Of a stretch of DNA of 64,000 nt, positions 799-37,402 are shown piece by piece (within the stretch, counting starts at the first letter, position 1; each line of letters opens with the position of its first letter). The notes below the pieces were generated by a model. The model saw nothing but the letters and a program-made list of their open reading frames with translations, was not told the origin of the DNA and searched no databases. The DNA lies in NCBI GenBank assembly GCA_947561395.2, contig OX387194.1, positions 11,952,048 to 12,016,047 of the forward strand, given 5' to 3'. The translations under genes and the position numbers were made by a program. Origin of the DNA: Buxus sempervirens. Lineage: Eukaryota; Streptophyta; Magnoliopsida; Buxales; Buxaceae.

Positions 799-1866
799 TA
801 TTGTGTTTTTTATTTTTAGCGGGCTCAAAATTTTGTCTTTTTGTGTTTGTCTTATGTGGAAACTATAGTCCCACATTGGAAGTTTATCAACAATTGTGTT
901 TATTAATAATGGTGTGCACTAAAAGGGTGTAACCCTAAAGTGAGATACTATATATTGTGATAGTGTCGAGGTGCTTTTAAATCACACGTGCGCGCACCAC
1001 TGCCGACGGTCGGGCGTGGCAAGGTGTGTGTGTGTGATTTAATATTTCCCATTTAATGTTTTATTTTATCTTAATAGGTCGACTCATGGGTTTAATTTTG
1101 GTTTAATGGGCCGACTCATGGGTTATTGTTTTTAATCGTTTTATTAACATTATCAAATGATTTGTTTTATTTTAATCTGTTATTGAAACCTGTTCCGAAA
1201 CCGTGCAAGTGAATAGTCACGAATGTTTCAGAACAATTACATTTTGGATTTCGTTTTTAAAAGGGGATATTGTGGGTTTGGGGCTTCTTATCTTTGCGAA
1301 AACAGAAACCCTCTCATCTCTTTGTCCTCCTCTTCCACTTCTAAAACTTTGTAACACTGCTGTTGTGGTTCGCCTGAGAACAGTATTTTCATGCGGATTA
1401 CTGGGAGAGGTTGCTTAACAAATGCTGAGAGCATTAGCACCAAAACCCAACGCACTGCAAATTTAATCTAAAGGGGGGTTTTAAAGGCTTTAAGCACAAA
1501 GATTCTTCAATCTTGCCTCAGTTCCATATTTGATAAGTCCTAATTTCGGTTCTATTATTCTCTATTCGATTTCTCTGTGTTTGTGATCCTGTTTCAAATC
1601 TGTCGTGTTTTAATTCCTGTATTCATCTTCTTTTGTTATTACTCATCTTCATCTCGTTTAGATTTGTTCACTTTCTATTTCTAATTTCATCTAAATCCAA
1701 TCTGTCGTGTTCGTGATTGTTTTTCTATTCTTTATTCTTTTGTTTGACATCTAGTGTTGCTGTTATTGTGTTTTATTTTATTTAGTTACCTTAAACCTAA
1801 TTATTCTCTTTATTGCAAATCTCGTCTATTTAATATATCCATTGTCTGACATTGCTATACCTTTTT
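799..1866 (+). repeat. copia-2 5' LTR, first part
   Basis: Aligns along its length with 43147-44508, including the shared stretch GGGCTCAAAATTTTGTC and the pyrimidine-rich end near 1800-1860. It stops where a T-rich run (the LINE poly-A tail on the other strand) begins. The terminal TG has become TA. Confidence 0.85.
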
Positions 1867-10082: not shown

Positions 10083-11481
10083 TTTTTTTGTAAGCACCAT
10101 CAAAGTTGAGTTTTACGAAAGAAGGATTTGGGCATGACCAGCAAACATCCACCAATCTCCTACCTCTTGGGTTACTCATGGAGAAGGATTTCAGCAACTG
10201 GGAATCTGCTTTCAATCTTTGGAAGAGTGTTGCACTAATGTCCATCAGTGGAGTCCTATTCTCAAATTTGAAGTGGTTGCCCACCATCCAAACAACCCAG
10301 CCAAATAAAGCAATATCAGTGAGGATATCTGAAATATGAAACTCATTAGAAGGTGGATTAAGATGCGCAATAAAGTTAAACCAATCAAACAGAGATTGTT
10401 GGGGTCCCAATGATTGCATAATACCACCAATTAACCGAAGCCATAAGGCCCTTGAGAATGAACAATGAAGCCAAAGATGTTCAACTGATTCTTGGTTATC
10501 CTTGCATAAAACACACAAGTTGTCAATACCAGGAATTCTTGACTGTAGACCGAAGTAGGAAGTGCACCACTTAAACTCTTCCACAGAAAAAGTTTCACTT
10601 GGCTTGGGCAATGTAAGTGCCAGCTTTTTAACCAAAGTGGATGAGACGAGAAATTTTATATACCCAACATTAGTCGATATGCAGAGGCGACTGTGAATTT
10701 CCCAGAAGATGTTAAGGACCATATACAACGATCCTCTCCCAACAAAGGAACAATAGGAGTTGCAAGAATTCTAGAAATATATTGTAGGTTGATGCCAAAA
10801 GGTAGATAACTTACCAACATCCCAGAAACCATTATGAGGATCAATTAATTGATTCACTATTGTAAAAGAAAAGTGATGCAGATTTTTTTCGACTTGCAAA
10901 TTGCCCTCAATACTCTGGACCCACTTGTCGGTAAGGATATCAACACTGCGACCATCTGCGAGGAGCCAGTGACTACCTTTTTCTATCCATTGCTTCAGTT
11001 TGTGAAGTTGCCTCCAACCATATGAATCTGAAGTCCCATAGGAGGATTTAAAAAAGGAATTGTTAGGAAGATAAAAATGCCTCATGAATTTAGTCCATAA
11101 ACCCTCACTATTTGTAGCCAGATGCCAAGCTGATTTGAGAAGTAAGGCATTGTTCATCACGTCCATATGCTTGACATTAAGACCACCATTACGCCATGGT
11201 AAGGTGATGCGCTCCCAATAGATGGAATGAAACAGTTGTTCGTCATTTCCTTTTGTCCAAAAGAAACTACGAATCAGATGGTCAAGTTTAGCCAAAATAC
11301 CTTGAGGTAGCTTGAAACACTGCATTAAATGGATTGGTTGGGCACTTAGAACGGACTTAATGAGTGTCAACCTACCCATCTGGGATAACAAGGAGGCCTT
11401 CCATCCAGCTAGACGTTGAAAGAATTTGGTTAGAATATATTCACAATCTCTAGCAGTAGGCTTCTTGGTGAGAATAAGAAC
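10083..11481 (-). pseudogene. LINE piece 2: RT C-terminal part, zinc-binding domain, start of RNase H
   Basis: Translated on the minus strand from 11481. It opens with TKKPTARDCEYILTKFFQRL and LAGWKASLLSQMGRLTLIKS, typical of the region after the plant L1 RT core. It continues through a zf-RVT-like segment (CTSYFGLQSRIPGIDNLCVLC, with ESVEHLWLHCSFS) to SFVKLNFDGAY, the first RNase H motif, where the CACTA-like element cuts it. The frame is broken near 10750. At the upper end it joins 17088 in frame (GKYLGVLILTKK) when copia-1 and one AGAAC are removed. Confidence 0.9.
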
Positions 11482-11794
11482 TGTTGAAAGCCCAACAACA
11501 CATAAGAGGAGGGGTCTCAACCTTAAAACCTAGGCCTTAAAGTGAGGGAAATCCATCTCTTATATGGTGGGTGAAAGAATGGTGAATTCCCAATGTGGGA
11601 CAAATTCCAACAGCCCCCCTCACGCTGGCAGCACAGCGTGGACATGGGTTAGGCTTTGATACCATGTTGAAAGCCCAACAACACAAAGAGGAGGGGTCTC
11701 AACCTTAAAACCTAGGCATTAAAGTGAGGGAAATCCATCTCTTATATGGTGGGTGAAAGAATGGTGAATTCCCAATGTGGGACAAATTTCAACA
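11482..11794 (-). mobile_element. TRIM (terminal-repeat retrotransposon in miniature)
   Basis: 313 bp in total. Two LTRs of about 131 bp (11482-11612 and 11665-11794) start TGTTGAAAGCCC and end CAACA. The 52-bp core has a tRNA-Met-type primer binding site (minus strand TGGTATCAAAGCC) next to the right LTR and a polypurine tract (minus strand GTGAGGGGGGC) next to the left one. It is therefore oriented minus and encodes nothing. The two LTRs differ at about three positions. The left end abuts the LINE duplication AGAAC, the right end abuts AATAC of the copia integrase gene. Confidence 0.9.
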
Positions 11795-14208
11795 AATACC
11801 TCACCAATGATCTTGTAACTCACTTGTCCAACTTGGGCATTCTACAACAGCTCACCTGTCCTTATACCCCTGAACAAAATGGCGTTGCTGAACGCAAAAA
11901 CCGCCATCTTATGGACGTTACCCGATGTCTCCTTCGGGGAATGTCTGTCCCTAAGTCGTTCTGGCATATGGCTGTGCTTACAACCACTTACCTTATTAAC
12001 AGGGTTCCTAGCAAAGTTCTGGGAGGTTCTTCTCCTCTTAGTGTTCTTCAGCCCGATAAACCCTTGTTTCTCCTTCCTCTTCGAGTTTTTGGATGTGTCT
12101 GCTTTGTTCAAGATCGGCATCCTTCTCGAACAAAGCTTGATGATAAATCCATCCGCTGTGTCTTTATGGGTTATGCCTCCCAATCCAAAGGGTATAGATG
12201 TTTTGACCCTTCCTCTGGGCGTCTCATCTACTCCCTTGATGTCACTTTCTGGGAGTCTACCCCTTTTTTCTCTTCCCTTGATGTTCCGAGCAGCTCGCCT
12301 CCTTCCTGTGGCTCATCCATACCTTGTCCTCTTCCTGTTTTTGCTCCGCCTACTAGTGCTCCTGCTGATACCCCTACTGATACTAGCACTGTTTCTCTGG
12401 ACACCTTACCTTCTGTTGCAGGTCCTCCCCTTCTTCAGTATAGCCGTCGCCCTCGGCCCCCCTTACCGATCTCCTCTACGAATGAAGGTACTCTCTCTCC
12501 CTCCTCCTCTACCTCACCTCGACGAAACCCTCTTCGGGATCGTCGGCCCCCTGATCGTCTTAACTTATCTTGTAGCACTAACCATCCCATTGAGCGGCAT
12601 ATGTCGTATAGTGCTTTATCTACATCTTTTCAGGGTTTTCTTGGGGCCGTTGACTCTATTTCCATTCCACGGTCAGTTGGGGAGGCTCTTTCTAGTCCGG
12701 TTTGGACGTCTGCTATGCAGGAGGAAATGAGGGCATTACAGGCTAATCACACGTGGGACTTGGTTCCTCTTCCTGAGGGGGAGAAACCAGTTGGTTGTCG
12801 ATGGGTGTTTAGTGTCAAGCACCATGCTGATGGGTCTGTTAGTCATTTTAAAGCCCGCCTTGTTGCTAAGGGCTTTACTCAGGTGCCTGGCAAGGACTTT
12901 ACTGCTACATTTGCTCCAGTCGCCAAACTTACCACTGTTCGGCTCTTGATTTCTCTTGCTGCATCTCACTCCTGGCCCCTCCACCAAATGGATGTTAAAA
13001 ATGCCTTTTTAAATGGGGATCTTGATGAAGTCATCTACATGGATCCTCCTCCGGGTTTTCGGGCTGAGGGGGAGTTTGCTGGCATGGTTTGTTGTCTAAA
13101 GAAATCGCTGTATGTGTTGAAGCAATCCCCCCGAGCTTGGTTTGCTCGGTTCAGTGATGTGGTTCTCAACATGGGTTTTTTGAGATGTCATAATGATCAT
13201 ACATGCTTTCTCCGGCGCAATCCTAAAGGAAAGTGTGTATATTTATCTGTCTACGTTGATGATATCATCTTGACTGGAGATGATGATGTTGGGATTACTC
13301 AAGTCAAGAAGGACCTCAGTTCAGTTTTTGACATTAAGGATTTGGGTAATCTGAAGTATTTTCTGGGCATTGAAGTTGCTAGATCAAAGCGTGGTATTTC
13401 CCTCTCTCAACGGAAGTACGTCTTAGATCTCTTGAGTGATACCGGGATGACAGGATGTAGACCGGCATCTGCTCCTATGGATGTTAATATCAAGCTTTCA
13501 TCTGAGTCTGGTGATCATTTACCCGATCCTCGTATCTATCAGAGATTGGTTGGGAGGCTTATCTACTTGACCAATACCAGGCCTGATTTAGCCTTCGCTG
13601 TAAGCTTGGTGAGTCAGTTTATGCATGCACCACAGACTGCTCATATGGATGCAGTTTATCATATTTTGAGGTACCTTAAGTCTTGTCCAGGCCTTGGTCT
13701 TTTTTATGACTCCACCATTTCCTCCGATGTCTCATGTTTCTCTGATGCGGACTATGCTGGGTCTAAAACCGATAGGAGATCCACGTCTGGTATTTGTTCT
13801 TTTTATGGGAATCATCTTATTTCCTGGAAGAGTAAGAAGCGATCTGTGGTTTCCCGGTCTTCTGCAGAAGCTGAGTATAGAGCTATGGCCCAGGGCACTT
13901 GTGAGATTATGTGGCTTCACTCTATCCTTGGAGAGCTTGGCTTTCCTGCTCGGTTACCTTCACTCCTATACTGTGATAACAAGTCAGCAATATTGATCGC
14001 ATCTGATTCTGTTCTACATGAGAGAACTAAACACATTGAGATAGATGTTCACTTTATTCGGGAGAAAGTTCAGTCTGGTACTATAGTTCCTCATTTTGTG
14101 CCATCCTCAGAGCAAACAGCAGATGTTCTTACCAAGCCTGTTGGTCCTTCTCTTCTGAGATCTTCTCTTTGCAAGCTGGGCATGATCGATATCTATGCCT
14201 CAGCTTGA
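11795..14208 (+). pseudogene. copia-1 pol, 3' half: integrase end, RT, RNase H
   Basis: Continuous open frame of about 800 codons; the ATG at 11746 lies in the TRIM and is not the native start. It begins YLTNDLVTHL, reaches the catalytic Glu of the DDE integrase in EQNGVAERKNR, then passes a Ser/Pro-rich linker. The copia RT follows (LHQMDVKNAFLNGDL, SVYVDDIILTGDD), then RNase H (SDADYAGSKTDRRSTSG, SSAEAEYRAM, KHIEIDVHFIREK). It ends with a stop at 14206-14208, followed at once by the polypurine tract and 3' LTR. No frameshift or stop is seen, consistent with recent insertion. It is cut off from its gag and start codon by the inversion and cannot be translated as a normal polyprotein. Confidence 0.92.
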
Positions 14209-14215
14209 GGGGGAG

Positions 14216-14340
14216 TGTTAGATATTAGTAGTGTAAATTGTTGATTACTGATGTAATTAGCTTAATTAGCTTGTGGGTATAAAACCCACTCACTGTTCAC
14301 CCTTTGTAATTAATTTTTTTTATCTTTTCTCCATTCAACT
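14216..14340 (+). repeat. copia-1 3' LTR (inverted relative to the 5' LTR)
   Basis: 125 bp, starts TGTTAGATATTAG after the polypurine tract TTGAGGGGGAG, holds GGTATAAAACCC (TATA box), ends CCATTCAACT. Identical to the reverse complement of 16965-17087 except for two extra T in a T run. It is followed directly by GTATTCC, the start of the inverted integrase N-half. Confidence 0.95.
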
Positions 14341-16182
14341 GTATTCCCCCCCATTGTCAGACCGAATACCCCGAACAATAGTGGAAAACTGAGTTTTAAC
14401 CATAGTGAGAAACTGGCACAGAGTAGCAAAGACATCAGATTTTTTCTTAAGCAAATAAACCCAAGTACATCGAGAAAAATCATCAATAAAGGTAACATAA
14501 TACCGATGACCAGACCTAGCAGTAACGGGGGAGGGCCCCCAAACATCAGAGTGAATTAAATCAAACATAGTGGGAGAGCGATGCATACGAGAAATATAAG
14601 GCTTTCGACAATGTTTCGAAAGTTCACACACATGACATTTAAAAGGAGATTGTTTGCAAGCAACAGACAGGCTAGGAAACATTAAACAAAGATACTGAAA
14701 ATTAACATGACCCAAACGAGCATGCCACAAAGGAATGTCATGGGCAGAAACAGAAAAAGGAAAATCAAACACAGGAGTAGTAGCAGCACGCAGAGCATAG
14801 TCAGGAGGCTGAGAAGGTGGTGGATCGCCAAAGTAGTATAGTCCATCACGCTCATACCCCTTGCCAAAAATCCTCTTCGAAGTCCGGTCCTGCAAGAAGC
14901 AACGATCCGGTAAGAATATAACAGCACAATCAAGGGATTTTGCAAGTTGACTAACAGATAAAAGATTAAAAGCAAATTTTGGGACATGAAAAACAGATGA
15001 AAGAGTGATATCTGATGAAAGTTTGACGGCGCCTTCACTACTAATCGTAGCAACAGACCCATCAGCTAAACGAACAGATCTATGAGTATGAGTCAATGGA
15101 GAAGAAAAAAAGGATAACTCACCCGTCATATGATCATTGGCACCGGAATCAAGAACCCAAGAGGGAGACTCAGAGCGAACGTGGAAGGCAGTGGGGATAC
15201 CTGAGGATAAAGTGGTGGTGGAGCCTGGTAATGACAGCTGGGCGATCTGGGCCTGAAGTGCTGCCACCTGAGCAGAGAGGGAAGGGGCAAGAGGCTCTGT
15301 GGTCTCAGCAACAGCAGCAGCTCTAGGAGGGAGGGCAGTCTTCTTTTGGAATTTAAGCTTCAACTCAGGGTGAAGTTTCCAGCAAGTTTCTTTAAGGTGT
15401 CCAGGGTTCCCACAATAGCGACAGGTCGACCGCCTTTTTCCAGAAGGACGAGTATTAGACGGACCTGCTGAGGTAGCAAAGGCCATCTGATCTGTAACCT
15501 CGCCAGTAGGAGGTATCGCAATAGGAGTGGAAATAAGGCGTCGGCGCTCTTCCTGATCAATCATCGCAAATGCATCCATCAAAGATGGAATTGGAGTAGA
15601 GTTTAGAATCTGGGTGCGAAGATTCTCAAACTCGGGCTTAAGCCCCATAAGAAAAGCATAAGTATGAAGACGATCCAACTTCTGAACCGCCACAGAGGCC
15701 ATCGTCCCAAAGTCACTGACGGGATCATACTGAGCCATCTCGTCCCAACGAGTCTGTAGGTAGCCAAAAAACTGAGAGACAGTCAATCCAAGGCTCTCCT
15801 GAGTGGCACGAGCAACCTCCTGGTACAACTCAAAGTGCCGAGCCTCATTCCGGGAATGAGCATACATCGCAGTCAAAGTAGTCCAAAGGCTAGCAACATT
15901 CTCATGATACATAAACATATTGAAGATATGTGGCTCCATAGAACCATAGATCCAACTCAGAATGAGGCAGTTATCAATATCCCATTGATCTGCCTTAGGA
16001 TCATCATCAGCTGGACGTGGAGCTTTTCCCAAAAGCCAAGCAGACTTACCTCGGCCACCAATAAACAATTTCAAGGACCGAGACCAAGCTACAAAATTAC
16101 GTCCATTCAACAGAACACTGGTAACTCTTCCACCAGTTAGAGGAGGTGCCAAATCCGAACGGGCACTAGATGATTCTGCCAT
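14341..16182 (-). pseudogene. copia-1 gag, protease and integrase N-half
   Basis: Open frame from ATG 16182 with about 613 native codons. Gag carries a CCHC zinc knuckle at about residues 254-267 (CRYCGNPGHLKETC). The aspartic protease motif DSG is near residue 345 (WVLDSGANDHMT). The pre-integrase HHCC region has WHARLGHVNFQYL and CHVCELSKHC. The first two catalytic Asp of the integrase lie in IHSDVWGPSP and RSDNGGEY. The frame leaves the integrase right after EY at 14341 and ends in the inverted 3' LTR. The next integrase residues are found at 11795 on the opposite strand. The 5' half appears intact, so a truncated gag-protease product could still be made from the 5' LTR. Confidence 0.92.
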
Positions 16183-16617
16183 GGAGAATCAAAGGGATAA
16201 CAAGGGAAAAGAAAAACAACCCCTAGGGCATCAACAAGTCACAGAGGACATCATGAAGGGAAGAGCTGCACTTATCGGGTACAAAAGAAATGGGTGAATC
16301 ATAAGCATCCACTTCATACAAAAGTTGCAAGAGGTATTGCAGGCCTACAATTTCAAGCTGGGTGAATACTGTTTCCACTGGATGATGGTAGACTTGCAGA
16401 GCTGCACTGATCGGGCATTGGAGGTGAAGATGCAGGCCCAACTCAACAGCTTAATGTGCGAAGAAAAACATTGCTTAAATATGAATGGTCAGTCATAGAA
16501 GCTCCAGAAACGGAAGGATGGAATGCAGAGTATTGCAGTGAAGAACGGCTCAGGCATCGCAAGGTCAACAAGAAGGCGAAAGGGGAGCCAAACACATCAG
16601 AGTTACATGGGAAGGGA

Positions 16618-16870
16618 GGTCGCTGCGCGCGCGCGAGAAGAGGGAAGGAAGAACCCTGCGCGCGCGCGAGAAGGGGAGAAGAGGGACCTGCGCGCGCGAG
16701 AAGAGGGAAGGAAGAACCCTGCGCGCGCGCGAGAGGAGGGGAAGGGAGGTCCCTGCGCGCGCGAGAAGGGGAAGGACCTGCATGAGCGCGAGGAGTGGAG
16801 AAGAGGGACCTGCGCGCGCGCGAAGAGGAAGAGGAAGAACGAGAATGCACGCGCGAGGAAGAAGAAGCAG
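16618..16870. repeat. CG/purine repeat array in the copia-1 leader
   Basis: Repeated units of the form CTGCGCGCGCGAGAAG plus GGGAAGGAAGAACC lie in the untranslated leader between the primer binding site and gag. Alternating CG runs occur at least seven times. Long ORFs on both strands here are arginine- or serine/arginine-rich by-products of the repeat. Confidence 0.8.
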
Positions 16871-16964
16871 AAGAGGAAGAAGAGGAAGAGGGAAGTCGGG
16901 GACGGTGGTGCTGTGCGGCGGCGGTGGCGACGGAGGTTGGTGTTTTTTGTTTGCTCTGATACCA

Positions 16965-17087
16965 AGTTGAATGGAGAAAAGATAAAAAATTAATTACAAA
17001 GGGTGAACAGTGAGTGGGTTTTATACCCACAAGCTAATTAAGCTAATTACATCAGTAATCAACAATTTACACTACTAATATCTAACA
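16965..17087 (-). repeat. copia-1 5' LTR with primer binding site
   Basis: 123 bp. Read on the minus strand it starts TGTTAGATATTAG, has TATAAAACCC and ends CCATTCAACT. It is followed at 16964 by the tRNA-Met-type primer binding site TGGTATCAGAGC. The TSD AGAAC lies just outside (17088-17092). Confidence 0.95.
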
Positions 17088-18528
17088 AGAACACCCAAAT
17101 ATTTACCTGATTTTGTTGTTCCCTCAACATTGAAAATCCTACGAAGTTCAAATTTTCGATAACTAGGAGTATCTTCAGTAAACCACAGAGATGACTTTTG
17201 CCTATTAATTTCTTGACCGGATTCAATGCAGTATCTATAGAGAAGTCTTGAAAGCGCATGGGCTTCAATAACTGAGGAGTGACCATATAGAGTTAGTCAT
17301 CAGCATACATTAAATGAGATATACTAATGCCCCCACGTTTAATAGAGACACCCCGAATTCTTCCCCTCTGTTTAGCCTTAGTGATTGCCAACGATAAAAC
17401 CTTCTAGCAAAGTAGAAAGAGGTACGGGGAGAATGGATCCCCCTATCGAAGTCCTCTACTTGCATAAAATTTGTCCACCGGAGATCCATTCACCAAAATG
17501 CTGTAAGACACAAAAGATACACATGTCATAATCAAGGAAATCATAGATTGGCTAAAACCATAAGCTTGAAGAGAGAGTTTCAAGAATTCCCAATTTATTT
17601 TATCATAGGCTTTTGAAAAGTCTATCTTTAGAGCATACAGCCCTTTCCCGTCTTTACTTTTGCAACTCTTAGAAGCACGCTTCTTCTTCTTTTTCCTCTT
17701 TCCATAATAATGGCAAAGTTCATGGTGGATCAGGATCTTATCATGTATAGCACGACCGGGCACAAAAGCTTATTGAACAGGGGATACCAAGGCGCTCAAT
17801 AATGGGCGAATCCGATTGACGATGATCTTGGCAATTATTTTGTAGGCAAAATTACAAAGACTAATTGGGCGGAAGTCCGAAATTCTGCGAGGGTGGGAAA
17901 CTTTTGGCAGCAAGGAGATGAAAGTATGATTTATGCCCTATGGAAGACTTTTATTGAGAAAGGAATTTTGGACTGTATTTATGACTTGAGGGCTGACAAT
18001 TTCCCAAAACTTTTGATCAAATATTCCCTAGAACCCGTCGGGACCAGGACATTTGAAAGGAGCCATAATTTTAACTATCTGCCAAATTTTTAAAGGAGAA
18101 GGAACTTGCTCAATTACAAAGTTTTGAGCTGCAGTGATGGTGGAAGGAACCAACCTAGGAAGTTCAATTTGAGTCCAAAGAGGATTCGCCTGATACATCT
18201 ATTGAAAATAAGAGAGAATAGAAGCTTGAATCTCCTTCTAATCAACAATTTCTCTGTTGTCATCGGTCTTCAAGGAGTAAATGTAATTCCTTTGGCGACG
18301 AATCAAAGTGGCCTTATGGAAAAAACTTGTGTTTTGATCTCCATATAGAAGCCAATTAATCCGAGATATATGAAACCAGAGTTGTTCGTCTTGCCTTAGA
18401 ACTTGATCGTATTCTTCTTTAACAGCTTGTTCTTCTTTAGCAAGATGGGTTTTAGAATAGATCAAGAGTTGAGATTGGATACGTTCAAGTTTACACAGCA
18501 ACTCTGACTTCTTCGCAAAGATGCTTCC
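17088..18528 (-). pseudogene. LINE piece 3: reverse transcriptase N-terminal part
   Basis: Minus-strand translation shows the segment before the RT (LWFHISRINWLLYGDQNTSF, FHKATLIRRQRN) and the RT core (LYALKIDFSKAYDKINWEFL, GSPVDKFYASRGLR). A stop replaces Gln in the RQGDP motif (CGATAGGGGGATCC), and the YADD box appears at about 17300. Several stops and frameshifts show an inactive copy. At 18528 it joins 21411 in frame (QVVGSIFAKKSELLCK) once LTR A and one CTTCC are removed. Confidence 0.9.
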
Positions 18529-19769
18529 TGTGCGCACCATATTTCGGTCGCACGACGAGGCGCACGCAAAACGATGCGTGCCTCGGGATTTTGTTTGGAG
18601 TCGCCACTGCCTGATGGGGTGCAGGCAGACACCTGGGTGCCTAAGTTCTTCTACTAAGGCTTTTGGTCTGCGGCTTTGAGATTCTAAGTAGGTTCTCGGT
18701 TGCGGTCTGGGGAAGTCCGTAGACACCCCAGTCCGCCTCGTCAAGTGACGGGTCCCATAAGCTTCCCTAGTTTGAGTCAACTCAGTTGGTCTCTCACTCG
18801 CCTGATTCCTATTCCAGCATGAAATTTTATTAAGTCTGGCGGGACTGCCAAAGTGGTGTGGGTCCCTTTACTTGATTTTATCTTTTCAATTAAAGTGATG
18901 TGAGTCTGATTGGGCGGGCCCCATTGGAAGGCCCGCGGATTCCTTGGTGGGCTTGGTTAAGCCCACATATCCCCTGGTGGGCCTCAGTCTAAACCTGAGA
19001 GGCCCTTTGGGCTTTGGTTTAAGTAAATTGATTTTAAATTCCAAGTTTGATTAAATTTGATTTCTATGCACAAGTGGGCCGGGATTGTTCGTGGGCCCTT
19101 GAGTGGGCCACATAATTGGTTGCCAAGTGGTTTCAGATTATCTTGATTAGCCTTTGCAAAGATGGGCCAAGCATTGGGCTTGGGGCCCTTTACCTGGGCT
19201 TGGGCTTGAAAGCCCAAGACTTCCCGAGTTAGGGTTTTGGAACCCTAACCTTGGTTGGTTAATGGGCTTGGTGGGCCCGATAGGCCCTGCCCGTGGTCTC
19301 GGCCAAACCACAATCTACTTTAAGCATGCATGGCCCAATTAGGGCTTGGGTGGGCCTCAAGTGGTCTGGCCCACTCAAATCTTTTATTATCTTAGTTAAG
19401 CAAAATGAATTGGTCGGGCTTGGTGGGCCCCGTTGGAAGGCCCACTGGAAACCAAGTTGGACCGAGGGTCCAAGCCCCATGTTGGGTTTCCGGGTGACCT
19501 GGAAACCCTATTGGTTCATCCGGTTCGGTTTGGAAATAAAACCCACATTCAGCAATAATCACCTAAGAAAATACACAAGATTGACACTCTATCAAAAAAA
19601 ATTTGGCTCATTGTGCTGGGTCCAAGCCCGTACCAAGGTACGAGTTGGATGCGCAACGAACAAAGGGGGTGGGGGGTGCGGGGGGGGGGGCAAAGCCCCC
19701 CGCGGTACAGTAAAGGGCATTTTTTGGAATTTTTCAAAAATATACCAATTTGGCATTTTTTAGGGGTAT

Positions 19770-19868
19770 GCGCCGACCTCGGGCATTAGGCGTGAGGTCG
19801 GCGCGGGCCGGGCGGACCGAAAACAGCGAAAAACACAAAAAAAAGGTGGGCGCGAGGTTCGCGCGAGC
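19770..19868. repeat. Palindrome cassette 2 of LTR A
   Basis: A 35-bp imperfect palindrome with arms GCGCCGACCTC / GAGGTCGGCGC at 19770-19804, followed by GTTCGCGCGAGC at 19857-19868. The 12-mer GTTCGCGCGAGC recurs in cassette 1 upstream of the TATA box (20648-20659). Confidence 0.75.
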
Positions 19869-20570
19869 TTCGCGGATACTCGACGCTCTCGGTTTTCTTT
19901 CAAACTCCATTTCTGAGCTGATTTTGAGCTCTGTAACTCATTTTTTTAGGCTCTGTAAGCCCTCCCAGGGCTTCGGCCACTCCCCAAAACATACTTAAAC
20001 TTTTATTGGAATTGATCTAACCTAAGTTGTGAGGGTCAACCCTCTCTGCAAACCTACAAATCCGAACACCCAAACACCCAAACACTAACAGAACATACAA
20101 GGAAGGGAACTGGGGGCTTTATCGGGATACAACAGAGAGGGAGAACTCATGGGGGGAACATGCTCCCCCTTCGAATCAATCAAAACAGAGCATAAATAGC
20201 ATGCTGAGATGGAAAACTTGCTCACTTTCTACATGTTAAAACAATAACTGAGAGGGAATCACCTTGGTTCCAAACCTTTGCAAAGCAGGCCGGAGGTTCC
20301 CTGGAGCTCACGAGCTGCTGCGGAAGACTCCTTCTTCTCACACCAAGAGCACGGCCTCCTTCGGGTTTGACGAGGAAGAAGAGGAAGGGAGGGGACCTGT
20401 GTGTATGTTCTTTTTTCTTCAAAATCCCGAGCCCAGAAAAACCATCCGAACCCTCGAATCCTAATCCCAAAACAAAAAACAAAAAAAAAAATGTCCAGCA
20501 CCCCCAAAATCGCGGAACCCCAAAACTCTCCAACGAAAATTTTTCCAACCCCTGGAAATGAAACCCTGCG

Positions 20571-20582
20571 CGGCTTTTATAG
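20571..20582 (-). promoter_or_regulatory. TATA box of LTR A
   Basis: CTATAAAAGCCG on the minus strand, followed downstream by a C/T-rich leader, as in the sister LTRs. Confidence 0.6.
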
Positions 20583-20610
20583 AAGAGTACAGAGGGTATC
20601 TGCCGAGTTT

Positions 20611-20659
20611 GGCGCCCACCTCAAGGTGAGCGCATACCCCCTGCCACGTTCGCGCGAGC
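20611..20659. repeat. Palindrome cassette 1 of LTR A, upstream of the TATA box
   Basis: GCGCCCACCT with inverted AGGTGAGCGC at 20611-20633, and the 12-mer GTTCGCGCGAGC at 20648-20659 shared with cassette 2. Confidence 0.7.
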
Positions 20660-20923
20660 GACCGAATGATTAAAAAACCATTAATGCGGCCGCTCGTTTG
20701 GTCGGAAAATCCGAATTTTCGGATTTAGTCCCTGGTTATTTTTAATTTAATCCGATATTCTTGGATTTTTACAGATTTAGTCCCTGGGATATTTTGAATG
20801 TTTGGATATTTATGGATTTGATCCCCGAGATATTTTTCTGCGCAACTCGCCACGTATGCAGTTTTTTGCCACGTGCGCAGTTCGCCGGTTTTGCTGCTCG
20901 GAAATTTCATCAGCTCATATTTT

Positions 20924-21310
20924 CTTCATCCGGACTCCGATCTGGGCAAACTCAGTGGCGTTAGAATCATATCGGAGCCCCCTATCCCATGACCTAGAGG
21001 TAAGCACCTGGATCGGATTTTGGCAGAAAGTCAACTTTTGGCTTCGCCCAAGTTTGACCGCCCGCAGAACCTTCATCCGGACTCCGATTCCTGCAAACTC
21101 AGTTGCGTTGGGATCGTGTCGAGATTCTCTATCCAATGATATAAAGCAAGGCCTCTGGATCGGATTTTGGCAGAAAGTCAACTTTTGGCTTCGCCCAAGT
21201 TTGACCGCCCGCAGAACCTTCATCCGAACTCCGATTCTTGCGAACTCAGTTGCGCTGGAATCGTGTCGAGATTCTCTATCCAATGATATAAATCAAGGTG
21301 GCCAAATATC
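20924..21310. repeat. 147-bp tandem repeats in the U3 of LTR A
   Basis: The string CTTCATCCG(G/A)ACTCCGA begins at 20924, 21071 and 21218, giving an exact 147-bp period for about 2.6 copies. Each unit has GATTCC...GCAAACTCAGTTGCG, whose relatives (CGATTCCAACGCAACTGAG / TTTGCTGGAATCG) recur in the U3 of LTRs B, C, D and E. Confidence 0.85.
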
Positions 21311-21410
21311 ACTTAATCAAAAGGTCAACTTTTTGTCCCTTCGGGGTTTGACTTTCTGCTAGGGTTTTCATTTTCAGCAATTTCAGGGGTGCAAAAATAA
21401 GGTGCTTACA

Positions 21411-22085
21411 CTTCCCACTACCTGTTTATTCCAACGCTTGAGATTAGCAGCTGACCTTGAAAGACACAAAATGAGCGAGTGGGAATCTGATTGTTGAGAA
21501 TGAGAAGACCAAGAATTAAAGACAAGTCTCTCTGCAGGTTGACTCCTCCAACCAAAATAGCTCAAAGAGAAACGGCTGAGAATTTCTCTTCTGTTTATAT
21601 GCCATATTAATAATTAGGGGTCAATGATCAGAAGAAACAATCGGTTGAGAGAATACAACAGGATGAGGAAAAATATCAACCAAATTTACTATTCCAAAAG
21701 CCCTGTCTATCTTCTCAGAAATTCTTCCAAAAACCTTGCTGGTTGTTACACAAGGAGAATTGAGGTCCGTGTAATGGAAGTTCCCATAGGTGACAACGAT
21801 TAATCATTTGTTGGAAAGCTTCTCTCTGTCATCTGGGAATAGGAGAACCACCTCTCTTTTCAGAGTCATGAAGCATAGCATTAAAGTCTCTTGCGAGAAG
21901 ACAAGGCAAGTCGTATTGTGAGATTAGTGATAATTAACATAATTCCACTTGTCTTGCTGAATTTCAAACTTAGAGTTTGCATGAAGAAAAAATATAATCC
22001 AAGCCTTCCCTTGATGAGAAACAAGTAAAATAATTGACCAACTAGTCTAAGATAGCACTGTAACATCCACATCATTGAGCCATAG
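21411..22085 (-). pseudogene. LINE piece 4: endonuclease C-terminal part
   Basis: Minus-strand frames show the later part of the AP-endonuclease-like domain and the linker to RT (MSYFGWRSQPAERLVFNSWS, LKRWNKQVVG). Stops and frameshifts are present. It joins 26297 across LTR B (CATAG) and 18528 across LTR A (CTTCC). Confidence 0.8.
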
Positions 22086-22344
22086 TGTAAGCACCTCATT
22101 TTTGTGCACCAAAAGTGCCGGAAATGAAAACCCTAACTGAAAAGTCAAACCCTAAGGGGGTAAAAGTTGACTTTTTGATCTGGTGCAAATCAACCACCAT
22201 GTTTCTTGCAATTGAATAGGAAATTCCGATACGATTCAATTGCAACTAAGTTTGCTAGAATCGGGGCTTGGATGAAGAAGTTATGGACCGGTCAAACATG
22301 AGGGAAGCAAAAATCGACTTTCTGCTAAATCTCAGACCAACTGC

Positions 22345-23231
22345 TAGGGGTGGCAATCGGTCAAATACGGATCAAATCTGCCTTGATTCGTATTTGAACC
22401 AATAAACAAGCAGTCGAATTTGAATTCAGATGGATATCCAACGGATCATCAGCCGATTGAATCCGTATTCGAATTCGAAATTTTGAATTCGGATATTCAA
22501 TAAGGATTAAAAGAAAAACACAAACTCTTAACAATTCAACAACGAAGATCCACAAGATTGGATCTGATATGCATCAAACCTTTTATAGAACCTGACAACA
22601 ACAAAAAAGAATATAACCAACATTTGCAGCCCATACAATCAGATATTAAACCATAATCCCTATCCGATCAAAATTACCAAAGCAAAATGCAACCAAATCA
22701 AAAATTTCCTGTAATAAGAGAGCATCTCATCTCTAATAAGTTCCAGATTCCTCCTACCTTACATTTTGATCTCGAAGAAACTATCTGGCAATCGCAATGC
22801 AGACTGGCAGAAGACTTTTGTAAGGCAAACAACACAGTCGTAGAAAACGAAGGTCGTTGTTGACGAACGGAGAAGATCAGCAAGGCAGTCGCCGGAGGGA
22901 GGCAGTGGCAAAGAGGAGAGAAAGTTTAGATTTAGGGCAAATCGTTCTCTAAAGGTGTTTGGTATTAGTTATGATGGTTCAACCGTGGTTTATAAATGTT
23001 CTACGGTCTAACCAATGTTCAATCTAGGTTTATGTATAGGATATATATGATTTCGGTCGGATCCTATTAGGATAAGATATATGTATATTCGTATTTGAAT
23101 CTGAACTTTTTGGGATCTTAGATTTTTGATCCGTATTCGATCCACAGATCTAAATCCTATATCTGAATTCGCCAATTTCAGATTGGATTGAGGTCAAATT
23201 CGGATATATATCAGACCCATTGCCAGCCCTA
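22345..23231. mobile_element. hAT-type non-autonomous element (MITE) inside LTR B
   Basis: Terminal inverted repeats TAGGGGTGGCAAT (22345) and ATTGCCAGCCCTA (ending 23231) match at 12 of 13 positions. LTR E at 35101-35160 shows the uninterrupted sequence (AGCTGCTCAATTGG). An 8-bp duplication is not visible. No transposase. Confidence 0.75.
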
Positions 23232-24049
23232 ATTTTGTCCTAGCAGAAAGAGCATCTCGACACGATACTAACGCAATTGAGTTTGTTGGAATCAGAGTCC
23301 CAGAAAGAGAATTATGAGCAGAACCAACTCCCGGGGAGCAGTTTTGCCTTTCAACTAAAAACTGAATCAACTGCTCAATTTTATCCCAGTAGATAGAGAT
23401 TTCCGACACGATTCCAACACAAATGAGTTTGCTGGAATCGGAGTCCAGATGAAGGATTTATGGGCATAGCAAGCCCCGAGGGAGCAGAAATTGACCTTCT
23501 ACTCAAACCCAGATTGTCTGCTATTTATGTCCCAAAGGAAAGGAAATGCCGATACGATTCCGACGCAACAGAATTTGCTGGAATCGGGACCCAGATCAAG
23601 GAGATATGAACAGATTAAGATTCCGAATGCGACTTCGGCCTTCTTCTAAAAACATAAATTTGCTACTAAACTTTAGCTCAATGGATAGAGGATCTCAACC
23701 TGATTCCAACGTCACCAAGTTTGCTAAAATCGGATATTAGATGAGAAAGTTATGAGCAGTCAAAATCCCGGAAAAACTACTCACATGGCGAAGAATAAAG
23801 AAAGGACAAAAAATAAAAAATCTAACAATAAAATAATAATATATCCTAAATATCTAAAATTTAAATTAAATAAAATAAAAATCAATTTACGCATGTGTAG
23901 AATGCATTGAGCAATAGCTGTATGGATAAGGATAAAGAAGGACACGTGTCATTCAATGAATCATTATTTTGTAACCAAAATTAAATTTCGGTTACAAGTA
24001 AGTTAAAAATTTTGTGCATGAAATTTCGGTTACAAGTAAGTTAAAAATT

Positions 24050-24074
24050 CGGTCACACTATTTCAGTGTGACCG
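24050..24074. repeat. Palindrome cassette 1 of LTR B
   Basis: 25-bp palindrome with arms CGGTCACACT / AGTGTGACCG just upstream of the TATA-like element, preceded by two copies of AAATTTCGGTTACAAGTAAG (about 23983 and 24021). Cassette 2, at about 25411-25516, contains several ACCGCATA / TATGCGGT-type palindromes. Confidence 0.65.
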
Positions 24075-26291
24075 AAATACATTTTAGGTTCACTTTTTTT
24101 TCTCTAAATAGGGGGTCCAGCCCCCATTCTCAAAAAAATAAAAAAAAGGCTGGCCCCTCATCGTCCCCACTTTCTTCTCCTACGACCAGTGAATGTCCCC
24201 ATCCTTCTCCAACCCTTAAACTTTTTTTATCCCTATTTTACCCTCCAAGAACATCCCTTTTCTCTTTTACACCCTTGGAAACAAAACAAAAGGTCATATT
24301 TGGGAGTCAAGGGAGGTCTCTAGGCTGCTATCCTTCTTCATTAAGGATCATCACTTGTCTGCAAAGAAGGTAATAAAAGGGGTGAGCATATTTGTTGCGT
24401 TTTCCTTCATATATGTCGAAATAAAATTTTAAGGATACATTGTTTATTTGCTTTAGAACTATTTCTTATTGTTTTGTTCTCACCATTTATTCTCTTTTTG
24501 CATGCTAAGAGATCCCCTTGGTAAGAGGGAGATTATCATACGAAGAAGGGAGGAGGGTCTTAACACATAGCTAAAGTCTTGATTAAATTATTTTGGAGTT
24601 TTCTCATATTATAGATTCATTTTTTAAGATGGGTTTGTCCTCTTCACTTGATCTCATGTATCCCTAACTCCTCTTCCCTCTCTCCCTTCAACTATAATGA
24701 GTTGTTTGATATTTTAGGTGTTTGCTTGCTCATGCTTTTCTCATCTAATCATGCATATTCATGTATAGTTTAGCATACTTTTTATGAACATCGAAGCACA
24801 CACATAAATATTCTTTAGGTAGAATTAGATTCTCCTTTTGTTATTTTTCTTTTATCTAATATAAATAACAGCATATACTCTTACACCAAATCTGTTTTCA
24901 CAAGGGATTTGTGCATAAGAGTTTTTTCCACTTACCTATTGTTTAAAAAAAAAACTTCTTTAGAAAATGAATATCACATATGCACGTTCACTTGAAGTGT
25001 TTTAGATCCGTTCTTACTGGCTCTTCCCCATTGTAAGCACATGTATGGGATTTCATCTTTACTTGGTTCACTATCACATACTTTTTGGATTATTTTTAGC
25101 GTTTTTAACTCACTTTCTAAAGCATGTTTTGATGCTTTAAATGATCCATTTCATTTATTGGTTTTAGGTGTCTCATGTCATCATTCTTACACATGATTAT
25201 ATGTGTATATTTAGTTCTTGTATTGATTCACTGATTGAGCTAAGGCATGTATGAATGGTTTGGTAAAAAGGGATCATTTGAGCTAAAAATGGGAGATTAA
25301 TACCACTATGGTTCTGCTCAGAGACCCACAGTAGTTTTCAGACGTCCCAAGGAAGTCGACGAACTGAACCCTGATGAGATTTCGACCATTTTTTTTCTGA
25401 TCCTGATTGAACCGCATACTCAGAGTGGTTCAAGCCCAACTGCACAACATGTGCGGTCAGGCCTGGACCGCACCAAGTATGCGATTATGTCTGATCCGCA
25501 AGACATATGCGGTCAGTCCAAGATAATCCATAGAACCTTATTTTGTGGATCCGATCCGGCCTGACCCCACCCGATATTACTTAATTTGACCCAGATGGGC
25601 TTTTGGGTTAACCCAGGCCCTTAATTGTGAGAATTAGGCCCATCAAGACATTGCGGGCCTTCCAACGGGGCCCACATTCAGTCCAACCCAAACCAAGGCC
25701 CATTTCAATAAATGGGCTCCATGCCACTCAGTTAATTACCCATGGGCCAAGTCCAAGCCCAATGGGCCCTAAAAGCCTTAACCCACTTAATTAATGTATA
25801 TAATCAATTAACCCAAAACCGAATAACTTAATCCAATAATAGGGTTACCCAATAACCCTAATGGGCCTTGGGCTTAACTAAAAAGCCCAAATTGGCAACC
25901 AATGGGCCTTCCAACAGGGCCCATGTTCGACCCACTTCATTAAAGGACTAAAAAAGATAAAATAAATTAAAATAAAGGGGACCTAAACCTTCAGTGGTCC
26001 CCACTCAAACCAAATAAAGGTACATGCTGGCTTAGGAATAGGGTGAGACTGAGTTGACTTGAACCAGGGAGACTCGAGGGACTTGTCAGACTGACGGAGC
26101 GGGCCGGGGTGACTTCGTACTTCCCCGGATGTAACCGAGAACTTACCCAAATCTCTAAAAAGCAGTAGACCAGCAAAATTCGACCCAGTTAGGCATCATT
26201 GTGTCTGCTTGCACCTCTCAGCCAGTGACGACTCCTAGTCCCGAGGCACGCATCATGCATGCGCCTCACCCGTGCGATTTCACCGCGCACA

Positions 26292-26506
26292 CATAGAATA
26301 AAAAATCCTTCTTTTCTATTAAAGGCAGACTAATAAAAAAAATTCTGAAAGCCCAATCTTCGAGCAACTCGTTGAGCTAAGAAGTGGGGAGCAAAGGTCT
26401 CCAATAGGAGAATTATATCAGGAGAATGTGTCAAAATCTGGCCTTTAAGGTGTTGCTGTGTCATGGTTTGGCCAAGACCATGACAATTCCAGCACAATAG
26501 TTTCAT
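26292..26506 (-). pseudogene. LINE piece 5a: start of ORF2 (endonuclease N-terminus)
   Basis: Minus-strand ATG at 26506 opens MKLLCWNCHGLGQTM and continues HSPDIILLLETFAPHFLAQR. This is the N-terminal Asn and the catalytic Glu (LLET) region of a plant L1 endonuclease. A stop follows NFFY just before LTR B. Confidence 0.88.
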
Positions 26507-27915
26507 GAGATGGGGTTTTCAGAGGAACCACAGGATGATGATCCTGGTTCACCCACTTTTGATTCAACAAATAACTTTCTTTTTTTGCTTGTGAGAGAAG
26601 GAGTTTCCTTAGCCTTTGACTCTTCCCTGAGACTACAGTTGACCTCTGAGATTTCCTGAATTGAAACGGATCTTGTGGAGCTAGGTTTCCAAAGGTGTCG
26701 ACTTTTCTTTCCAGCAACGGGAGAAGAAGATGTGTTGATTTCAGTTAGTCTGAGATGTGGAGAAGCCTGAAAATGAAGTCTCTTTGCAATATCTCCGTCT
26801 TGCCAAGATTTAGGAAAGAAATCCATTAGGAATAAATTAAAACCCATAGATTTTGATGGGCTTTGAACAATCTAAGCAGTATTCTTGGCTGAAAAAATGA
26901 AGGATGCATTTTGTGAGCCCAACTTGTGGGCCCTTGGTGCAGGTACATGATGATCTAAGGGGCCCAAAGCCTCCTGACAAAGAGATATTTGCATGGGAAT
27001 GAAAGCAGGATTCGTAGAGAGGTTAATACCATCCAACTCGGACTGATATCCATCACCATATTCTTCAGACCCAGATCGCTCTTGCTGAGTCAATTTTGAA
27101 ATCGTTTGGACTCCAAGATTACTAGACTCATGGTTCGACTCATCTCGCTCAGTCATCTTCTTCATAGATTTCATAGTTAACCCACTTTGTCGACGTCTTC
27201 AGATTGGAGGGTGGTTCATTTGAGAATACATGGGAGAGAAATCGGAAGAAGGGGGACTGAAACAACTTCCAGAAGAAATGTTAGGGAAGATATTTAAAGT
27301 GTGACCTAGAAAACCACAAGCAAATTTTACCCAGACTTTTTTTGCATCAAGATCATGGACATAGACTCTGACAGGAATAGGTTTGTGTAGAGAAATCTCC
27401 CACCTAATACAAGCAATAGGAAATTTGGAAGATTGAGGAAGTTCCACATCTAAAGGCCTGCCAAATTCATTACTGAGATGTTCCAAAAATTGGGTATCCA
27501 TAAACTCTCTTGGGAGGGATAACAATTGAGTCCGGATAATAACATCTGAGAAGACTTGAGATTCTGTTTCAGAAGGAGACTTAAGTTGGTTTACTAGTGT
27601 TAAGGTACTGTTGATAAACCATGGTCTCCCAAGAAGAATAAACTCCATATCTGCCTCATCAGATAGAGACATAATGAACCAACAGTCAGAAACGGAAGTA
27701 ATATTCACATAACGGATTTGCTTCCATGCCCGATCAGCAAAACTACGAACAACGGTAGTGGATACATTTCTGACGAGAACTTTTAAGAGAAGAGAAAACT
27801 TCCAACGAGACTGAATTTGGTTCCGCTCTTGCTCAGTAAGCGACAAAACCCTAGTTGGACGAGGAGGTAGAATCATATTCTTGAACCTAGCTTCAATTTC
27901 ATCCATTTTCTTCAA
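26507..27915 (-). pseudogene. LINE piece 5b: ORF1 with DUF4283-like domain
   Basis: ATG at 27915 opens 238 codons: MKKMDEIEARFKNM, ...RSFADRAWKQIRYVNITSVSD, ...EFILLGRPWFINSTLTLV, ...FACGFLGHTLNIF. This resembles the DUF4283 RNA-binding-like domain that starts many plant L1 ORF1 and gag-like proteins. A stop at 27199 is followed by further frames (to 26445) with serine-rich sequence but no clear zinc knuckle. ORF1 is probably frame-broken. Confidence 0.75.
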
Positions 27916-27933
27916 GAATCTCAGGGCTGTAGA

Positions 27934-28671
27934 TAGAGCTGTAAGTAGGGCGGGTTGGGCTGGGTTTTGATGAGTTCGGGCTCAACCCAATCTAAAATCA
28001 ATTGGCCCAAACTCACCTTGGCCCGCCCTAAACCCAAACTACTTGAACCCAAACCCAACCCTAAAATTATTTCTCGAGTTCGGGCTGGGTTCGGGTTGGC
28101 CCAAATTAATGAGATCTATCAAGGATCTAATGAAATATAATAGCAAAGGCAACAAGTCTGTAATATTTTTAGTATAGGAAAGCAAAAAATTGAGTTTTTA
28201 AATTATAACATTTCTAAGATTTATTGACCAAATTATAAGACAACACATTCAACATTATGAAAGAAATACTTACTAAAAATGTGGTCCTTTGTAAATCTCA
28301 AGTCATTATCCATACAAAGGTCAACATTATCAACTTTCATAAATCTTGAAAAGGTTCTAGGTTTGAAGCTTTATACTCAATTCTATAGAACCTTACATAT
28401 TGGGGAATTGATTGGAAAAATAGAGAGGAAGGGCCTGGAGTTTGAAAGAACTTAGGAAGAAGATGAGGTTTGCGGTAAGTCATTTAACCTTGGCTTTATA
28501 TAGTTCGGGGTTTTTGGGTTTTTCGGGCTATGAGGTGCAAACCCAAACCCAACCCAAACTCAAGTTCGGGCCTAAAATCAAGCCCACCCCAAACCCAAAC
28601 CCAAAATAAAATCTTAGATCGGGCTATTATTCGGGTTGGGTTGGGCGGGCTGGGCAAAACTTACAGCTCTA
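27934..28671. mobile_element. hAT-type MITE, 738 bp
   Basis: Terminal inverted repeats TAGAGCTGTAAGT and (A)CTTACAGCTCTA, perfect over 12 bp, with a perfect 8-bp duplication GCTGTAGA at 27926-27933 and 28672-28679. Subterminal regions are rich in GGGTTGGGC / AACCCAAACCCA repeats, typical of hAT MITEs. No coding capacity. It sits in the LINE just upstream of ORF1. Confidence 0.92.
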
Positions 28672-28772
28672 GCTGTAGATCAGGGAAGCGAGGAAGTTAG
28701 AACATAGCAATAACTTGAGATGGAAGTAGTGAAAACCACTGGTCTGTAGGCAGAAAAAGAAACGATGAATAC
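28672..28772 (-). other. LINE piece 6: 5' untranslated region
   Basis: About 100 bp of LINE leader between the hAT MITE and solo LTR D. It ends with AATAC, the duplication of LTR D. Its continuation upstream is at 38229. Confidence 0.65.
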
Positions 28773-29363
28773 TGTGTGTTAGCACCTGATTTTTGCACCC
28801 CCAAAATAAAGAAAAATAACAAGTCAAAAAAGTCAAACCCTGAGGGGGTCAAAAATTGACTTTTTGATTCAAGTAAATTTGGCCATCAAGCTTCATCTCA
28901 TTGAAAAGAACATTTTGACACGATTCCAACGCAACTGGATTTGCTGGAATCGGAGTCCAGATGAAAAAGATATGAGCTAGTCAAACTTTTGGGGAGCGAA
29001 AAGTTGACTTTTTGCTCGACCCCAATTCAACTGCCAAACTTGATCCCAATGGATAGGTGGTTCCGAGCCGGTTCCAACGACACTAAGTTTGATGAAATCG
29101 GACACCAGACGAAGAAGTTATGAGCAGTTGAAGTTTCAGAAAAACTGCCCATGTGGCCAAAAAGGCAGCAAAAATGGACTAAACCAATAAAATAAATAAG
29201 ATAAAGGTGTTTAATAATATTTTAATAAAGAGAATCTCCCTTTTTAATAAAATAATCGAAAAAATCGAATAAAAATCTTGCAAAAAAACCAAATTGAATA
29301 AAGGTTTGAAATCCAAATATTTTTAAAACGTGCTGGACCGTATTTCAATTATGGGCAAGGCAT

Positions 29364-29549
29364 GCCCGTATTTCAAATACGGGCAAGCTTCTGGAAGAAG
29401 ACACGCGTCGTTGTATGGCGGGACACGCGTCCCGTACGGCCGATTAGCGAGATTTGCAAATGTGCGTTTTTCGCCCGTATTTGAAGTACGGGCAAGGCAC
29501 GCCCGTACTTCAAGTACGGGCAAGGCACGCCCGTACTTTAAATACGGGC
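29364..29549. repeat. Palindrome cassette 1 of LTR C, upstream of the TATA box
   Basis: Four 21-bp palindromes at 29364-29384, 29473-29493, 29501-29521 and 29529-29549, all with arms GCCCGTA / TACGGGC, spaced by GCAAGGCAC-type linkers. The last ends 15 bp before the TATA box. Confidence 0.92.
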
Positions 29550-29564
29550 ACGCCCCTTTTTGCC

Positions 29565-29573
29565 TATAAATAG
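29565..29573 (+). promoter_or_regulatory. TATA box of LTR C
   Basis: TATAAATAG followed by a C-rich run, in the same context as in LTR E (35770-35778). It defines the transcription direction of the family. Confidence 0.7.
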
Positions 29574-30356
29574 AGAGGCCTCCCCCCCCATTTCAACAAG
29601 CCTTCCCCTTAGGCCGAACCCCTCCCCCTCTTTGCAATTAGCCACGCCTAAGCCCTGCCCAATCACCATCACCCCAACACCTAACCCTATTTAATGTCCA
29701 AAATACCCCTGTCCCACCAAAATCATGTCTAAACTTCTCTTTTTCATCCTTTGAATATCAAGAACCCACCAAATCTCTGCCAAAACCATTCCAAGAAATC
29801 CCATAGGACGCGGAAGCGCTGCTCAAATTTTCGGAGGACCATAACACCAATCAAACAATTAATTACATTGTACGTATGTTCTCCTTCTAAATTAAAGTGA
29901 ATTTTGATTTCATTTTTCTCTTACTCACTACTTCTTGTCATTATATGTTATATCTAACATGTTTTGAGTGTTGTATGTAATGAGGAATTGCATACAAAAG
30001 TAATCCTTCTCATACAAAAAGGGGAGGTGATAACAAGGGGTTATCAAAAATGTCTCAAAGAGGGAAAACTTGACCCCATTTCATCACCATTATGTGAAGA
30101 AGATTGAAGTCCCTTTTGAATTTCTAATGTCCCTTGTAAATTACCCCTTTCCCATTCCTAAAAGTTGATGGTGGACAAACAAGAAGGACTTTGCTTACTC
30201 AAAGAACAAAAGAAGGAAAAAGGTGATCATTTGGACCAAGAGAAGAAAATGCAATGCATTGAAGGAGCTAGAACCATCGCAGTTATTACAGAAAGCTCCC
30301 AAAAGGTCACGGAACAGATCCCAAGCAGAATCGGCAGCAAACATGCAAAATAAGCC

Positions 30357-30461
30357 GCGCCCGTAAACTCAGAGCGGTCCGGTCAGGACCGTGTTTGCTT
30401 CACGGGCAGCCCAAACCGTATTCTATTCACGGGCAAAGGCAACCCGTATAACAAATACGGG
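30357..30461. repeat. Palindrome cassette 2 of LTR C
   Basis: Palindromic CCCGTATAACAAATACGGG at 30443-30461, preceded by looser CCGTATT...CACGG and CCCGTAA...CACGGG pairs. The arm CCCGTA / TACGGG is the same as in cassette 1 about 800 bp upstream. Confidence 0.85.
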
Positions 30462-32226: not shown

Positions 32227-32329
32227 TAGCCGACCCTTATGGTCGGCTATACACACAGCCTAATGTAGCTGACCATAAAGGTCGGCTAACCAAAAAACCC
32301 AAGTGATCCGACCTAAGTTGTCGGATCAC
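32227..32329. repeat. Palindrome cassette 2 of LTR D
   Basis: Palindromes at 32227-32249 (TAGCCGACC / GGTCGGCTA), 32266-32288 (TAGCTGACC / GGTCGGCTA) and 32303-32329 (GTGATCCGAC / GTCGGATCAC). The core CCGAC / GTCGG matches cassette 1 of the same LTR at 37403-37648. Confidence 0.88.
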
Positions 32330-35769: not shown

Positions 35770-35778
35770 TATAAATAG
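35770..35778 (+). promoter_or_regulatory. TATA box of LTR E
   Basis: TATAAATAG followed by GGGGGTCCATCCCCATTCTC, closely matching LTR B after its weaker TATA element. Confidence 0.7.
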
Positions 35779-36639: not shown

Positions 36640-36788
36640 TTTTGACCCTTAACCGAAAACACAGGTCGGTTAAACTCATTTTTAAGTTTTACCAAAATTA
36701 AATCTCGGTTAAGGCTGATTATAGCTTAACCGAAATTTAATTTCGGTTAAACTAAAAAATTGGTATAACCGAAATTAAATTTCGGTTA
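36640..36788. repeat. Palindrome cassette 2 of LTR E
   Basis: Palindromes at 36726-36750 (TTAACCGAAAT / ATTTCGGTTAA) and 36766-36788 (TAACCGAAAT / ATTTCGGTTA), plus a looser CGGTTAA pair before them. Cassette 1 upstream of the TATA box (about 35703-35760) holds GTAACCGAAAATTT with decayed partners. Confidence 0.85.
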
Positions 36789-37394: not shown

Positions 37395-37402
37395 AAAAAA
37401 TT

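Follow-up and report, generated by a model that had tools for sequence, protein, structure and literature searches.

A copia–TRIM composite joined at element termini in Buxus sempervirens, probably the product of two mixed end-pair integration events

Within a 64,000-nt stretch of DNA from Buxus sempervirens (the window, to whose full length all window coordinates below refer), a copia retrotransposon and a TRIM are fused in a composite of 5,606 bp (11482-17087), which is inserted in a LINE between two copies of AGAAC. We consider it likely, with a probability of roughly 0.85, that this composite arose from two integration events, in either order, each of which used one copia end paired with one TRIM end. 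As the initial annotation had read from the letters, the copia polyprotein is split in the integrase and its halves lie in opposite orientation, a reading with which the coordinates and the Pfam matches of each half agree (Table 1). Its further statements, that the four junctions fall exactly at element termini and that both staggered-cut duplications (AGAAC and AATAC, the latter inverted) are present, hold to the base: the outer LTR ends are all four intact, and each of the two inner junctions carries one copy of the integrase word AATAC, the second inverted relative to the first. Because the copia family runs TGTTAG...CAACT and the TRIM family TGTTGG...TTCAACA, all four joins are at true termini. 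The two duplications are also 5 bp long, as are those produced by normal insertions of either family. As in autointegration products, a terminus of the element is joined to an internal site of the same element, a segment is inverted and the target word is duplicated in inverted orientation; a classical inverted circle does not describe the composite, as its second end is that of the TRIM and the product is linear and chromosomal.

Table 1. Parts of the copia–TRIM composite and its flanking duplications, in window positions.
Feature	Position	Strand	Remark
Outer target-site duplication AGAAC, left copy	11477-11481	.	LINE aligns unbroken over the joined flanks elsewhere
TRIM, 313 bp	11482-11794	-	sense on minus strand
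TRIM 3' LTR	11482-11612	-	
TRIM interior, 52 bp	between the LTRs 11482-11612 and 11665-11794	-	
TRIM primer-binding site	11652-11664	-	some other TRIM copies = TGGTATCAGAGCC
TRIM 5' LTR	11665-11794	-	
Inner target-site duplication AATAC, TRIM side	11795-11799	+	opening bases of integrase 3' part
Copia segment B: integrase 3' part, reverse transcriptase, RNase H region	11795-14215	+	SH3_retrovirus, RVT_2; RNase H by position
Segment B open frame	runs to 14208	+	
Segment B G-rich tract	14207-14215	+	
Copia 3' LTR (TGTTAG...CAACT)	14216-14340	+	outer end fused to integrase
Inner target-site duplication, inverted copy	14341-14345	-	GTATT on +, AATAC on -
Copia segment A: leader, gag, integrase 5' part	14341-16964	-	Retrotran_gag_3, Pol_BBD, gag_pre-integrs; rve below cut-off
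Segment A open frame	16188-14335	-	
Copia primer-binding site	16953-16964	-	
Copia 5' LTR	16965-17087	-	outer end fused to chromosome
Outer target-site duplication AGAAC, right copy	17088-17092	.	

The autonomous part of the composite belongs to the Ty1/copia LTR retrotransposons, with domains in copia order (an order checked in upright relatives), LTRs, a primer-binding site and 5-bp duplications. Pfam was run separately on each copia half, the halves never being joined; gag, Pol_BBD and gag_pre-integrs on segment A and RVT_2 on segment B scored above the cut-off, SH3_retrovirus was also matched on segment B, and rve, covering model positions 7-78 of 102 (the integrase core), reached 27.9 bits on segment A vs a cut-off of 32.6. 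Neither half matched an RNase H model in Pfam, and the RNase H region is assigned from its position only. When the frames were scanned, both coding stretches proved open throughout, over 617 and 803 residues. The LTR ended in CAACT, with a 5-bp duplication, in all 16 non-chimeric two-LTR copies examined (for example GAGAG at L039, GTGGC at L040 and ATCGG at L041), and because the family LTR really ends in these letters the inner copia junction is exact; a TG..CT ending is unusual. L039, on C14, is the nearest of the 20 fetched related copies for both copia halves, and 26 sites of the B half are common to it and the window alone among the 13 copies compared (the window and 12 of the 20), which speaks for the two mixed events. 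Two repeats were noted beside this family: a GC-rich tandem repeat with units of ~30 and 63 bp lies in the copia leader (window 16609-16840) and aligns poorly in most other copies, and a diverged repeat family (~68-87% alike, on both strands), present many times in window 18549-38228, recurs inside the 3.4-kb insert of the copia copy L055.

The smaller partner is a TRIM of less than 1 kb, with two LTRs, a primer-binding site that we take to be of the tRNA-Met type, a G-rich tract, no coding capacity and 5-bp duplications, the last of which were seen in all five distinct other insertions examined. The sixth base of its 5' LTR, near the LTR's end, is substituted. The genome search with the TRIM gave 322 first-look candidates, a figure that is not the true copy number, and 40 of them were scored. 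At one locus three units stand in tandem with shared LTRs, and TCATC flanks the array as a whole (L003, L004 and L006; G000 C1:2223625-2224307).

The order and orientation of these parts can be reproduced by a mixed attack of the two elements. In a symbolic model in which one copia end and one TRIM end attack AATAC in the same copia, one of the eight products matches the observed arrangement, namely that in which the gag side receives the copia 3' end and the RT side the end of the TRIM 5' LTR. This product leaves the copia 5' end and the TRIM 3' end free, the very pair that faces the LINE. All four ends take part, each a single time, and both events bring a U3 end together with a U5 end, just as normal integration does. 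We propose that a copia cDNA and a TRIM cDNA came together in one particle or pre-integration complex, where their ends would have swapped partners, copia U5 (3') with TRIM U3 (5') and copia U3 (5') with TRIM U5 (3'). One mixed pair would then have made a concerted, 5-bp staggered attack at AATAC within that copia molecule's own integrase gene, inverting the RT side and hanging the TRIM on its far end, and the other mixed pair would have joined the molecule to the LINE at AGAAC. The integrase 3' part must have come from the attacked molecule itself, because the opposite side of that staggered cut lies on it, and that copia would not yet have been integrated, since an integrated copia could not offer a free 3' end. 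From the equal 5-bp duplications we infer that copia's own integrase may have made both events; we put this no more strongly because the likeness of TRIM and copia is limited to short LTR ends, the type of primer site and the G-rich tract. Mixed autointegration had been offered by the initial annotation as one model, and it is supported both by the predicted order and orientation and by a chimeric copy elsewhere in the genome (L043, described below). Against two mixed events it can be said that they must be rare, the composite being met once among 31 copia copies.

As to the order of the two events, the attack on the copia's own integrase gene probably came first. In the reverse order, copia U3 and TRIM U5 would have entered the chromosome, and the two ends left free would then have attacked the integrase gene and closed the chromosome again; the final sequence is identical and the four ends are again used once, but a broken chromosome would have to be held until the second attack, and nothing in the sequence favours this course. 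We therefore regard the reverse order as unlikely, giving it a minor share of the probability placed on two mixed events as a whole.

Considerably less probable, in our estimate, is a nested insertion followed by an inversion, in which a TRIM inserted in the integrase of a copia, before or after its move to the LINE, and the segment bounded by the outer end of the TRIM and the end of the copia 3' LTR was later inverted. Such a history would yield the same order of parts, and it would suit the slightly greater divergence between the TRIM LTRs than between the copia LTRs; however, both breakpoints would have to coincide exactly with element termini. The copia and TRIM termini do share GTTGAA in inverted orientation, and a microhomology crossover at this word was considered and rejected, as it would leave a T at each junction, one beside AATAC and one beside GTTCT, whereas the letters at both places are read as A. 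The integrase halves are upright in all 30 other copia copies placed by search (strands compared by eye), and a TRIM at the integrase site is absent from every one, which argues against the nested insertion and equally against the earlier suggestion of a TRIM resident in a mobilised copia that was afterwards inverted. No sibling composite or intermediate was found among these 30, which counts against the two mixed events.

Where the integrase site itself could be read, in 26 of the 30 copies, comprising the 20 fetched ones and six more loci, no TRIM was present; AATAC occurred once in 24 of these, and an altered word was found in L036 and L058. Because the word is single in relatives, the two AATAC copies of the window are a target-site duplication. 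In 20/20 fetched related copies the halves are consecutive, point the same way and are not separated by a TRIM. Matches to IN5' and IN3' overlap by 5-6 bp in 25 of the 30 copies, leave a gap of 5-21 bp in four and are parted by a 1,455-bp insert in one. Three of the four small gaps (L051, L052 and L036) represent G-run or similar changes and the fourth lies in the copy at C9:35960204; the G run beside the AATAC site varies in length among copia copies. The large insert (in the copy at C9:37943144-37945240; L059 and L060) sits in this same integrase G run beside AATAC. A hot spot for insertion shared with the window was considered for it and rejected, as the two insert ends that were read lie in the G run and match neither TRIM nor copia.

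The ages of the two parts bear on the same choice. The initial annotation had counted about three differences between the TRIM LTRs, and a T run alone between the copia LTRs, and had set this against a single event. Its counts are correct: two substitutions and one single-base gap separate the TRIM LTRs, and the copia LTRs differ only by two bases in a T run. The argument drawn from them fares less well. Each of the three TRIM LTR differences is private to one window LTR in comparison with 12 LTRs of other TRIM copies, and the numbers fit the rate of private change in the copia body, where the B half carries 8 private substitutions in 2,421 bp vs 12 of the 20 fetched copies. At that rate 0.86 private changes would be expected in the 261 bp of TRIM LTR and ~0.8 in the copia LTRs, vs 2 and 0 observed; the probability of at least two substitutions in 261 bp is ~0.2 (Poisson, by hand). 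LTR pairs elsewhere differ by 0-1 substitutions in four other TRIMs and by 0-5 in eleven other copia copies. That the TRIM LTRs are more diverged than the copia LTRs and than those of the four other TRIMs is a point against two mixed events, though two substitutions are within chance. The TRIM and copia counts are ordinary draws, so that a single common age of both parts would be allowed, not proved, by the sequence. With three private changes and a probability of this size, we rejected the idea that the divergence of its LTRs proves the TRIM to be older.

Two of the 20 fetched copia copies are chimeras with the same TRIM family. L043 (1824-7143, corresponding to G000 C8:5638823-5644142) runs from a copia 5' LTR through the body to a copia 3' LTR, where it switches at CTGT to TRIM interior and TRIM 3' LTR; its ends are a copia 5' LTR and a TRIM 3' LTR, and CTATT flanks both sides. 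Given these matching 5-bp flanks, a molecule with one copia end and one TRIM end has integrated elsewhere in the genome. L058 (3032-6084, on G000 C8), flanked on both sides by CATCC, consists of a TRIM with part of a second LTR, 2.6 kb of the same copia family in sense orientation, and TRIM interior and LTR again. By hand arithmetic, 322 TRIM candidates would be expected to hit fewer than 0.1 of 31 copies of ~5.2 kb in 676.5 Mb by chance. Both chimeras have an internal junction, a single orientation and one outer duplication, as is the case for complex elements made by template switching, and they look like the products of switching between RNAs in one particle. They support co-packaging of the TRIM with copia, and a copia cDNA and a TRIM cDNA may likewise have shared one particle when the window composite was formed. 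An amplification of L043 was considered and rejected, its junction being found once among 40 of 336 candidates scored.

The presence of such chimeras in the genome raises the question of whether template switching between copia and TRIM RNAs could have made the whole composite. We hold this to be very improbable: L043 and L058 keep copia in the TRIM sense and join internally, whereas the window composite contains an inversion and joins at exact LTR termini, and neither its inverted half nor the inverted duplication of a 5-bp word is explained by RNA copying.

A search of the genome for further composites, proposed with the initial annotation, met neither inner junction again in the candidates scored. 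The TRIM–integrase junction is found in the window alone (32/32 candidates scored); the 30 other copies in this search, of 90-100% identity, match from the start of AATAC in 29 cases and from its second base in one, and the last of the 32 candidates is a 47-base match. The copia LTR–integrase junction is likewise confined to the window among 40 of 105 candidates scored. Two copia LTR matches, at C1:65602291-65602417 and C1:58939681-58939809, extend five bases into GTATT and then stop, an extension that we ascribe to chance or to the DNA flanking those LTRs. For the flanking LINE, with 11/11 candidates scored, one other copy, at C12:37850-38233 (77%, query 1-381), continues without a break where the composite is inserted, and six weaker matches span that point as well. 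Repeats commonly cause misassembly, but two matching 5-bp duplications, a LINE aligning over the joined flanks and unique junctions would not be expected from a misjoin, and an assembly artefact that joined separate loci is accordingly a very slight prospect.

Autointegration is reportedly the subject of older papers by Shoemaker in 1980 and Garfinkel in 2006. According to the accessible portions of two later articles (PMC4751563, PMC2644782), it gives inverted or deleted circles. The window composite resembles the retroviral and Ty1 products described in those portions in that an LTR end is joined to an internal site of its own DNA and one side is inverted; those products are circles, whereas the window holds a linear, chromosomal one in which one of the attacking ends is the TRIM's. 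Complex LTR elements of the Triticeae, as presented in the accessible text of Sabot and Schulman 2007 (PMC1950507), are template-switch fusions with a single 5-bp duplication, in which two elements were fused before one integration. L043 and L058 broadly belong with them, while the window composite, unlike these elements as that text describes them, is partly inverted, is joined exactly at termini and carries a further duplication inside. Autointegration is known, and a chromosomal, linear product of two families was not met in titles and abstract openings of the literature, where no integrated autointegrant with ends from two families was announced; this is weak evidence of absence, subscription papers lying mostly outside that sample.

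In the accessible portions of PMC4751563 and PMC2644782, autointegration is described as a dead end with extrachromosomal circles, and the window would preserve in a chromosome, legible base by base, an autointegrant that used ends of two families and was nevertheless integrated. Together with L043 and L058, the composite ties the TRIM to a specific copia family. A survey of plant TRIMs (PMC4717578), in its accessible portion, connects just 11 of 289 subfamilies with larger LTR elements related to them, most movers being unknown. The TRIM studied here is like those in that portion of the survey, being non-coding and 313 bp long, with LTRs of 130-131 bp, 5-bp duplications and one tandem array; candidate movers were found there by similarity of LTRs and internal regions, whereas the link here would be a fossil of co-packaging. 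We lean towards a wider interpretation, although with distinctly less assurance than for the two mixed events themselves: the TRIM family may ride in the particles of this copia family, whose integrase may pair TRIM and copia ends freely, and intasomes with swapped partners may give rise to linear, integration-competent autointegrants that become fixed in chromosomes, such fossils offering a general way to the movers of TRIMs even where LTR likeness is lacking. As the fossil test needs no LTR similarity, it makes the question of TRIM movers testable in assembled genomes.

Several other features of the window were recorded. Its further Pfam domains SPARK, DUF4283 and zf-RVT, which are associated with plants, point together with the element types to a plant host. 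A direct repeat of ~1 kb, with copies 87-89% alike and 42 kb apart, occupies window 801-1862 and 43149-44509, and a hAT transposase remnant (44966-45865, minus strand) lies just past its second copy. On the minus strand at 51102-53306, an open frame of 734 residues spans 96- and 195-bp tandem repeats and has no Pfam match.
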